Source: Candidatus Zixiibacteriota bacterium
GTDB taxonomy: Bacteria > Zixibacteria > MSB-5A5 > CAIYYT01
Direction of reading: 5' to 3'
NCBI GenBank assembly: GCA_020853795.1
Contig: JADYYF010000117.1
Span: 1 to 34,740, forward strand
Length of the DNA: 34,740 nt
The notes beneath the pieces are model-generated. The model was not told the origin of the DNA and did no database searches. It worked only from the letters and a program-made list of their open reading frames with translations. Below, piece by piece: positions 31,766 through 34,209 of this stretch (positions within the stretch are counted from its first letter, which is position 1; every line of letters starts with the position of its first letter). The translations under genes were made by a program, and so were the position numbers.

Positions 31766-32953
31766 ATGAGACGCGAACGACTCCTGCTGATAACGCTGGG
31801 CGCGATCAATTTCACGCACATCGTCGATTTCATGATCATGATGCCGCTGGGGCCGCAGTTGATGCGGCTGTTCGCAATTTCGCCCCAGCAGTTCTCAGCC
31901 TTGGTATCGACCTATACTTTCTCTGCCGGCACGGCCAGCTTTGTGGCGGCGTTCCTGCTTGACCGCTTCGACCGTAAGCGTGCTCTAATCACGGCCTTTG
32001 TTGGCTTCATTATCGGCACTTTCGCCTGCGCCTTGGCGCCAAACTATCACCTGTTGCTTTCCGCACGCGTCATTACTGGCGCCTTTGGCGGCATCTTGTC
32101 AGCCTTGATCCTGTCGATTGTCGGAGATGTGATTCCGCAAGAGCGCCGGGCCACGGCGATGGGGATCGTAATGGCCGCGTTTTCGGTCGCGTCGGTCTTC
32201 GGTGTGCCGTTCGGGCTCTATATTGCCACCCGCTTCAGTTGGCATGCGCCGTTTACTTTCCTGGGGTGTCTTGGTTTGATACTATTCGTGCCGATTGTCA
32301 TGGCGGTTCCCTCAATGCGCGAACACCTGGCGTCCGACCGGCAACATCCGGGTCCAGTCGCCGTGCTGACCTCGGTAGCCAAAAACGGCAATCAACTTTC
32401 GGCGCTTTGGTTTACCGTGATGCTGGTCCTCGGGCATTTCATCATCATTCCGTTCATCTCGCCGTTCATGGTGGCGAATGTTGGGTTTCGTGAGACGGAT
32501 CTGACTTACATTTACTTGCTCGGCGGCTTCGTTACTGTCTTCACATCGCCGCTGATCGGTCGAGTCGCTGATCGCGTCGGCAAGGCACAGGTGTTCACGG
32601 CCTTTGCCTTGCTGGCTCTGGTTCCTGTGTTCCTGATTACGAACCTGCATCAAACGGCCTTGCCCGTAGCTCTGGCAATAACGACGGTCTTCTTCGTAAC
32701 TTCCAATGGCCGTTGGGTGCCGGCAGTGGCCATGGTGACCTCCGCAGTATCGCCGCAGAATCGCGGCAGCTTTCTTTCGATCAACTCGGCCGCGCAGCAA
32801 CTTTCGGCCGGGGTGGCCGCCGCGTTTGGTGGAATGATTGTCGCGAAGGATGCTTCCGGTGCGTTGCTGAATTACCATTACGTCGGCTATATCGCGATAG
32901 CGATCTCGCTGCTGGCGATCCTGGTGGGGCGCCGACTGCATGCAGTTGCCTGA
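31766..32953 (+). CDS. Major facilitator superfamily transporter
   Basis: The 395-residue inner-membrane protein has 12 hydrophobic segments. The MFS loop 2-3 motif appears as LLDRFDRKRALI (residues 65-76), and TM4-5 has GAFGGILSALILSIVGDVIPQERRATAMGIVMAAFSVASVFGVPFG, the pattern of DHA1-type drug or sugar efflux proteins. A second loop motif, GRVADRVGK, lies in the C-terminal half. It would exchange a small substrate for protons; the substrate is unknown. No ribosome-binding site is visible before the ATG (TAAATACTATG). The selenoprotein-like rhodanese gene starts 52 bases after its stop. Confidence 0.92.
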   Translation: MRRERLLLITLGAINFTHIVDFMIMMPLGPQLMRLFAISPQQFSALVSTYTFSAGTASFVAAFLLDRFDRKRALITAFVGFIIGTFACALAPNYHLLLSARVITGAFGGILSALILSIVGDVIPQERRATAMGIVMAAFSVASVFGVPFGLYIATRFSWHAPFTFLGCLGLILFVPIVMAVPSMREHLASDRQHPGPVAVLTSVAKNGNQLSALWFTVMLVLGHFIIIPFISPFMVANVGFRETDLTYIYLLGGFVTVFTSPLIGRVADRVGKAQVFTAFALLALVPVFLITNLHQTALPVALAITTVFFVTSNGRWVPAVAMVTSAVSPQNRGSFLSINSAAQQLSAGVAAAFGGMIVAKDASGALLNYHYVGYIAIAISLLAILVGRRLHAVA

Positions 32954-33005: not shown

Positions 33006-33338
33006 ATGACTGATCCGACTCCTGCACGAGTGAGCGCGGCGGAAGTTCGCCGCCGCATGCTTGCCGAAGAAAACACCCTGCTGGTGTCAGTATTTCCGGA
33101 AGCCGTTCATCGCTTCTCGCATTTGGACGGCGCGATCTCGCTCGAAGCGCTCAATCGCCGTCTCGAGTCGCTTGATAAACGTACCAATCTCGTCTTCTAC
33201 TGAGCCTGAGTTGGTGATGAGAGCGCCGTCAGTTTGGCGGCGGAGTTTCTAGAGCGTGGTTATCTGAACGCGCAAGTCCTTGAAGGGGGCGTCGCAGCCT
33301 GGCATCAGGCAGGATTTCCGATCATTGAAACGGCATAG
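33006..33338 (+). CDS. Probable selenoprotein: rhodanese-like sulfurtransferase with UxU active site (two in-frame TGA)
   Basis: Read through two TGA codons (33201-33203 and 33207-33209), the frame gives a complete 110-residue single rhodanese domain. The N-terminal half is VSAAEVRRRM, TLLVSVFPE, HLDGAISLEAL. After VFY comes U66-A-U68-VGDESAV, then LAAEFLERGYLNAQVLEGG and VAAWHQAGFP, ending at TAG 33336-33338. In the closest rhodanese subfamily this loop reads YCxCPxxxSA, with the first Cys as the sulfur-accepting residue, so both TGAs fall on Cys positions. Frame, composition and similarity are intact on both sides, which argues against a decayed gene. A SECIS-like hairpin follows. Without recoding the product is a 65-residue fragment lacking the active site. 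The ATG at 33006 is preferred over TTG 32991; the ribosome-binding site is weak. Selenium insertion is inferred. Confidence 0.8.
33224..33242 (+). promoter_or_regulatory. Candidate bacterial SECIS hairpin of the UxU rhodanese
   Basis: CGCCGTCA pairs with TGGCGGCG (eight pairs including one U-G) around the loop GTT. The stem begins 14 bases after the second TGA and 20 after the first; the loop begins 22 and 28 bases after them. Bacterial SECIS elements lie just downstream of the UGA, with a G (and usually U) at the start of the apical loop for SelB contact, as here. Confidence 0.6.
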
Positions 33339-33588: not shown

Positions 33589-34209
33589 ATGGTTGCGACA
33601 GACATGAAACGCGGGTTCCCCAAGCAGCGATTCGAAAAGAGCGTCGAACCGCGGGTTAAGTGCGACGAAGGCGGATACTTCATCTATACCCTCAGCGAAA
33701 ACGTCAAAGTCTATTTCGATGATTACTACGGATTCCTCGAGCGGGCCGAGCAGCGCGCTCTGGCCGACATCGGCGATATCAAGGCCAAAGAGGCCGAACT
33801 TAAGCCGCACGAAACCGAACTGCGCTCCTACCTGTGCGCCCGCAAGAAAATTCTCGAAACGCTGCTGCGCACGGTGTACGATTTCTACACCGAAGCCAAT
33901 AATTTCGGCGTCGTCATGACCCCCTGGTGCTTTGGCACTGTGGTACTGGAGAAAGTGGAAGCATATCGCGACAAGCTCGCCAAGGGTAATGTCGAGGACA
34001 GCGACCTGCCGGAATACACCTACGACGTCGTGCGCTACATTGAAGAGATTTACCGCAAAACCTTGCTGGATACGTTTGACTTCCCCGAAAAGGCCTTCTC
34101 CATGCGCTGGCAGTATTCCGAGCTGCTCAAGCGCTATTCCAAGGCGCTGACTAACATCAGTGCCTCCCTGCAGTCGGTCATGATGCTCGTCAAGAGCTAC
34201 GGCAGCTAA
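33589..34209 (+). CDS. Uncharacterised 206-residue soluble protein under a sigma-54-like promoter
   Basis: Not recognised. There is no signal peptide or membrane segment. After a basic start (MVATDMKRGFPKQRFEKS) comes GGYFIYTLSENVKVYFDDYYGFLER, then a long helical body with many Glu, Lys, Tyr and Leu residues (LRSYLCARKKILETLLRTVYDFYTEANNFG), a short non-helical TPWCFG turn near residue 115, and further helices to the end (SASLQSVMMLVKSYGS). It looks like a mainly helical bundle. AAGGAG lies eight bases before the ATG. The gene stands alone between a sigma-54-type promoter and a strong terminator. Sigma-54 control is common for nitrogen, motility and stress functions, but none can be assigned here. 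Next downstream is a probable HD-GYP gene. Confidence 0.85.
   Translation: MVATDMKRGFPKQRFEKSVEPRVKCDEGGYFIYTLSENVKVYFDDYYGFLERAEQRALADIGDIKAKEAELKPHETELRSYLCARKKILETLLRTVYDFYTEANNFGVVMTPWCFGTVVLEKVEAYRDKLAKGNVEDSDLPEYTYDVVRYIEEIYRKTLLDTFDFPEKAFSMRWQYSELLKRYSKALTNISASLQSVMMLVKSYGS

Follow-up and report, generated by a model that had tools for sequence, protein, structure and literature searches.

A SECIS-like hairpin downstream of two closely spaced UGA codons in a bacterial rhodanese-superfamily gene

Among described bacterial selenoproteins, the rhodanese-like selenoprotein form 3 (NF041203, rhodanese_LYCAU) is entered in the accessible table of a 2026 review with a CxU motif containing one selenocysteine (Sec, U) (PMC13188914). 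Bacterial proteins with two Sec residues are also on record, with the available portions of that review and of the GOS paper giving UxxU motifs for Prx-like, metal-binding (NF041115) and FmdB proteins and a UxxxxU motif for TsoB. Section 5 of the review (PMC13188914) describes the bacterial SECIS element (bSECIS) by an apical loop of 3–9 nt on an upper stem of 4–16 bp, a G within the first two bases of the loop, frequently with G or U after it, a distance of 16–37 nt from UGA to apical loop and an energy of -7.5 kcal/mol or lower. For a bacterial UxU protein we found no report in the accessible parts of a mainly non-subscription literature (PMC13188914, PMC9312934, PMC1088965, PMC1794560, PMC2398784, PMC8318568, PMC5029168); the term 'UxU motif' together with selenoprotein occurred in the context of neurodegenerative disease only. 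Within these sources, the CxU rhodanese selenoprotein and bacterial UxxU and UxxxxU proteins are therefore known, and the UxU form considered here is one for which no report was found.

A rhodanese gene with two in-frame TGA codons

The gene lies in a stretch of 34,740 nucleotides from a Candidatus Zixiibacteriota genome (contig JADYYF010000117.1), the whole of which is referred to as the window. It was compared with 19 intact Sec-codon relatives, the window included, that comprised 6 UxU and 13 CxU genes from Zixibacteria and Planctomycetota (Sec rows), and with seven relatives carrying CxC (Cys rows). The features assigned in the window are as follows.

33006..33338, + strand: predicted rhodanese-domain selenoprotein gene, 110 codons, start codon assumed (PF00581, AlphaFold2 model, PDB matches)
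33201..33203, + strand: UGA1, putative Sec66 (U66), Cys in CxU and CxC relatives (TGA in 6 UxU rows, TGY in 13 CxU and 7 CxC rows)
33207..33209, + strand: UGA2, putative Sec68 (U68), aligned with the usual rhodanese catalytic Cys (TGA in 19/19 Sec rows, TGY in 7 CxC rows; MAFFT)
33224..33230, + strand: 5' arm of the probable SECIS stem, 7 bp (covariation in 19 Sec rows)
33231..33235, + strand: probable SECIS apical loop AGUUU, consensus GGUCN, with G33232-U33233 corresponding to the GU of 19/19 Sec rows (loop conservation)
33236..33242, + strand: 3' arm of the probable SECIS stem (covariation in 19 Sec rows; leave-out model match at 33223-33243)

If both in-frame TGAs are read through, the product of 33006-33338 has 110 residues and its active-site loop reads U-A-U, the two TGAs being six bases apart. 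The protein is a member of the rhodanese superfamily, as PF00581 matched it with 37.6 bits against a gathering cut-off of 22.2 (E 3e-9) over a domain that covers both TGAs, and the AlphaFold2 model (pLDDT 90.6) adopted a rhodanese fold with best PDB matches to rhodanese 3ilm (TM 0.79) and GlpE 1gmx (TM 0.76). In this model residues 66 and 68 were placed between strand 61-65 and helix 69-83, and a MAFFT alignment with ordinary rhodaneses put residue 68 in the column of the usual catalytic Cys and residue 66 two residues earlier. Ordinary annotation ends such genes at the first UGA and the family is therefore easily missed.

The surrounding genes were also surveyed. An MFS transporter gene (31766-32953) lies on the same strand 52 bases upstream of the rhodanese gene and is nearest to the myxochelin exporter MxcK, at 326 bits below the cut-off of 525, and an open reading frame of 206 aa at 33589-34209 gave a sub-threshold HybE match of only 19.6 bits. 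As a clue to function the neighbourhood offered no shared family among nine neighbours of six loci.

All components required for Sec decoding were found in the host genome (3.56 Mb, 215 contigs, 99.9% complete). A tRNA-Sec (71.6 bits) adjoins selA (495 bits) and, beside it, selB (283.5 bits, above cut-off) on contig C210, while a selD domain (401.8 bits) lies within a 766-codon open frame on contig C44; in the class as a whole tRNA-Sec was present in 105 of 132 genomes. Formate dehydrogenase, considered as a positive control from within the genome, gave matches without an internal TGA and thus provided none. Five of the 17 long open reading frames of the window end in TGA, indicating that TGA is still a stop codon there.

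This last result bears on the reading of the gene as a pseudogene with two stop codons, or of the genome as one that translates TGA as Trp, which we regard as scarcely credible. TGA is a stop codon by default, and one relative (L119) does look broken and carries an in-frame TAA; against this, the two TGAs are shared at Cys positions by six genes of different genomes, the domain is intact beyond them, and the termination of the five window frames at TGA argues against a reassigned codon.

Hairpin anatomy and strength

An earlier note on this DNA had placed a SECIS-like hairpin directly downstream of a double TGA. This location was borne out, as the two TGAs share one frame and 14 bases (33210-33223) separate UGA2 from the start of the stem. 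The 8-bp stem that it described, CGCCGTCA at 33224-33231 with TGGCGGCG at 33235-33242 around a GTT triloop at 33232-33234, is present in the window; the triloop is not conserved, however, as the A-U pair that closes it is absent from the other 18 Sec relatives. The conserved form of the hairpin is a 7-bp stem with a five-base loop, AGUUU in the window (33231-33235), and the GUU triloop is thus a local variant of the window.

In either form the hairpin conforms to the described bacterial SECIS, with 7 bp and a 5-nt loop or 8 bp and a 3-nt loop, a G in the required part of the loop (AGUUU or GUU), a distance of 21–22 nt from UGA2 and 27–28 nt from UGA1, and an energy of -11.7 kcal/mol against the limit of -7.5. 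The suitability of distance and G/U loop for SelB recognition, proposed from the sequence alone, is consistent with these values from both UGAs. Folding likewise recovered the stem in the minimum-energy structure of all five stretches folded, albeit with a modest stability relative to shuffled sequences (z from -0.37 for 71 nt to -2.04 for 38 nt) that is ordinary for a GC-rich stretch.

Chance pairing was estimated from coding sequence. Among 7,903 coding positions in the 17 window frames, 6.4% conform to the bSECIS rule and 1.0% reach -11.7 kcal/mol; the energy of the hairpin alone was rejected as proof because of the former proportion. Random synonymous codons for the window protein reached the hairpin energy in 4.9% of draws (p = 0.049), in comparison to 0.085% for the gene of G024, a genome of the same class. 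These values indicate that the hairpin taken alone is weak evidence and that the comparison with relatives carries the case.

Relatives and covariation of the hairpin

Relatives were collected from several sources. A protein profile applied to 132 genomes of the Zixibacteria class and phylum identified UxU genes only in the window and in G024, which belongs to another family of the same class and whose gene shares the TGA pair and encodes a protein of 38% identity. A DNA-pattern search of the 132 genomes returned 30 places, of which two were rhodanese genes and 28 were rejected as chance frames. NF041203 gave weaker matches in 77 of these genomes, none above the cut-off and none with an internal TGA among the matches listed. 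The Planctomycetota search (392 genomes) yielded 26 matches in 25 genomes, divided into 4 UxU, 13 intact CxU, 1 broken CxU, 5 CxC and 3 without the pair. No match was found in viral contigs, and plasmids gave matches to two distant rhodaneses.

Several sequences were dropped before counting, namely L119 (CxU, but with its motif altered and its frame interrupted by TAA), L127, L128 and L129 (no Cys/Sec pair), and L016, L026, L082 and L036, L037 (duplicates of L035 and L108, L116). Alignment A6 predates the finding of L126, which therefore belongs to the seven Cys rows of the codon randomisation and lies outside the six-row covariation test; L109 was given uniform codons in the synonymous randomisation since it had no open reading frame from which to take codon usage. 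L119 itself (1501-1782, genome G350), with its TAA upstream in frame and an FSCGU motif, retains a hairpin scoring 26.7 bits and is perhaps a recent pseudogene. In each of the genomes of L036 and L037 (G132 and G133), two tRNA-Sec matches exceeded the gathering score, of which one was strong and the other, at 47.1 bits, marginal.

The window gene is most closely related to L104, which came from the Planctomycetota search and is also UxU (45% identity, support 92/82). Regarding a single or multiple origin of UxU, the drawn tree has five changes, only one of which is forced by well-supported branches. Sec at position 1 occurred only where position 2 was also Sec in every row found, and no UxC row was present among the 26 matches, which fits a history where Sec is primary at position 2 and is gained or lost at position 1. 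Genome G155 holds both a CxU and a UxU rhodanese (L106 and L124) and offers a natural within-cell comparison.

The 19 Sec rows aligned without gaps and had the hairpin in the same register in every case. RNAalifold, with no structure supplied, predicted the 7-bp stem and 5-nt loop from these rows. When the eight pairs were counted, 82.9% of 152 pair cells were standard and five pairs had changed on both sides (e.g. UA:13, CG:5), giving a covariation score of 0.284 that was reached by none of 500 shuffles and fell to 0.154 or less when the partner was slid by one to three columns. The 7-bp stem had 123 of 133 pairs, whereas in 2,000 synonymous-codon randomisations the number averaged 91.8 and never exceeded 108. 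GU at loop positions 2-3, which these randomisations gave in 4.8 rows on average and in no more than 11, was found in 19/19 Sec rows. The four innermost pairs were intact in all 19 rows. A GGUC loop is common to the other 18, with AGUUU of the window as the sole departure. A comparison of the window with G024 showed a C-G to U-A exchange of the outer pair at positions that are synonymous on both sides, whereas a test restricted to the two Zixibacterial rows was uninformative, its covariation being matched by 261 of 500 shuffles.

In contrast, 41.7% of 48 cells paired in the six Cys rows, where no measure exceeded the shuffles and RNAalifold predicted a different structure; the difference in stem covariation between TGA and TGC homologues that the earlier note had proposed as a check was thus obtained. 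The RGU loop was found in 19/19 Sec rows and in 0/7 Cys rows, and the seven CxC relatives likewise lacked the stem in the Sec register. This is the pattern that the bSECIS description expects, a structure kept with Sec codons (19 rows) and absent with Cys codons (six to seven rows). As the Sec rows are related to each other, the counts are not independent and carry less weight than their size suggests; the contrast between Sec and Cys rows is nonetheless clear in these alignments. All four genomes with the first-found Cys homologues carry tRNA-Sec, and the absence of the hairpin there does not simply reflect lost Sec decoding.

Equally stable stems in Cys homologues had been named beforehand as a finding that would speak against a SECIS. 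Two Gammaproteobacterial homologues did have stems that were nearly as stable (-10.8), although in a shifted register and with G at the loop start in one only. These Cys-Cys sequences (L038:4181-4243 and L039:4181-4243) continue an upstream membrane-protein-like frame, and L038 passes the generic SECIS rule in its other register. Their genomes have tRNA-Sec, and the stem may be either a remnant of a SECIS or fortuitous.

A covariance model of the hairpin alone was built blind to the Zixibacterial rows, from 17 Planctomycetota rows. Of its 34 matches on both strands of the window, the best was 33223-33243 at 15.7 bits, ahead of 12.5 for the next. The E-value of 0.25 is by itself not significant, though the place is the predicted one. 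The same model scored 26.1 bits on G024.

These comparisons decide on the possibility that codon bias in the Ala/Gly-rich stretch after the active site produced a stem that plays no part in decoding. Pairing is favoured by the amino-acid sequence (SAxxLAA and similar), such that random synonymous codons form about 5.3 of the seven window pairs, and this together with the p value for the window alone and the stable stems of L038 and L039 without Sec speaks for a chance hairpin. Against it stand the covariation and the invariant GU loop of the 19 Sec rows, which are missing from seven Cys rows, and the first rank given to the window hairpin by the leave-out model, and we consider it very improbable. 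The hairpin is real and very probably a bacterial SECIS element, as judged from comparative sequence evidence.

Proposed sharing of one hairpin by two UGA codons

The natural reading of this anatomy would be that both UGAs are decoded as Sec from one hairpin. In the 13 CxU genes, whose only UGA is in the second position, this hairpin lies as far from that codon as it does from UGA2 in the window, indicating that it is matched to UGA2 and that UGA1 shares it; as relatives use it for one UGA, one signal appears to serve two codons. We hold with considerable confidence that 33224-33242 is the SECIS of a rhodanese-superfamily selenoprotein and that the same hairpin directs Sec at UGA1 and UGA2 to yield a Sec-x-Sec product. 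The wider proposal, a UxU rhodanese family of Zixibacteria and Planctomycetota in which one UGA2-matched SECIS serves two UGAs six bases apart, appears probable.

Alternatively, the hairpin may act for UGA2 only, with UGA1 being a real stop or subject to low-level near-cognate suppression, so that full-length protein would be rare or have another residue at position 66. The match of the hairpin to UGA2 in the 13 CxU genes is consistent with this, as is the position of UGA1 6 nt further from the 5-nt loop (27 instead of 21 nt), yet this distance is still inside the 16–37 nt range (PMC13188914). Moreover, the TGA at position 1 is kept in six rows from two phyla, is never replaced by another stop and always stands at the Cys of relatives. 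Termination at UGA1 would cost the catalytic residue and nearly half of the domain, yet the rest is conserved. We therefore judge a function restricted to UGA2 to be unlikely.

For the preferred reading, in which both UGAs are decoded, SelB loaded with Sec-tRNA would bind the loop while UGA1, and then again while UGA2, occupies the ribosomal A site. With its stem starting 14 nt past UGA2, the hairpin is expected to be still folded with either codon in the A site, and not yet unwound it would direct Sec insertion at UGA1, 27 nt from the 5-nt loop, and at UGA2, 21 nt from it. In the product, Sec68 would occupy the catalytic position of rhodaneses with Sec66 as the partner residue, and the two would probably cycle via a diselenide (or via a Se-S or Se-Se intermediate) in a putative transfer of sulfur or selenium or a reaction with peroxide. 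If this is true, one hairpin serves two successive elongation cycles, with SelB reloading or staying on, and the Sec-x-Sec catalytic pair may form a diselenide of very low potential.

Together, the CxU and UxU genes provide a natural series in which an identically placed hairpin follows one or two UGAs. This series allows one to ask how far a SECIS reaches and whether the same ribosome can use it twice, and raises the question of why a cell pays for a second Sec in a sulfurtransferase-type active site.

In comparison to known systems, NF041203 is the best NCBIfam model for the window protein and the relatives scanned, and shares their active-site spacing with Sec at the second position. The window protein scored 50.4 bits against its cut-off of 115, and the relatives scanned were also below it; the motif given for this model in the accessible source is CxU with one Sec, whereas the window has UAU with two TGAs. 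The UxxU proteins and TsoB likewise have two close Sec residues in one bacterial protein, but as far as the available portions of their sources describe them the former have other folds, TsoB is a rhodanese/DsbD fusion, and their Sec codons are at least 9 nt apart in comparison to 6 nt in the window. The SECIS of E. coli fdhF (formate dehydrogenase H) is likewise a hairpin just downstream of UGA, and contains a bulged U. Its GGUCU is common to the loop of G024, and the 5-nt loop of the window has G and U at its second and third bases. In fdhF a single UGA is followed by GGUCU after 18 nt, whereas in the window the distances to the 5-nt loop are 21 nt for UGA2 and 27 nt for UGA1.
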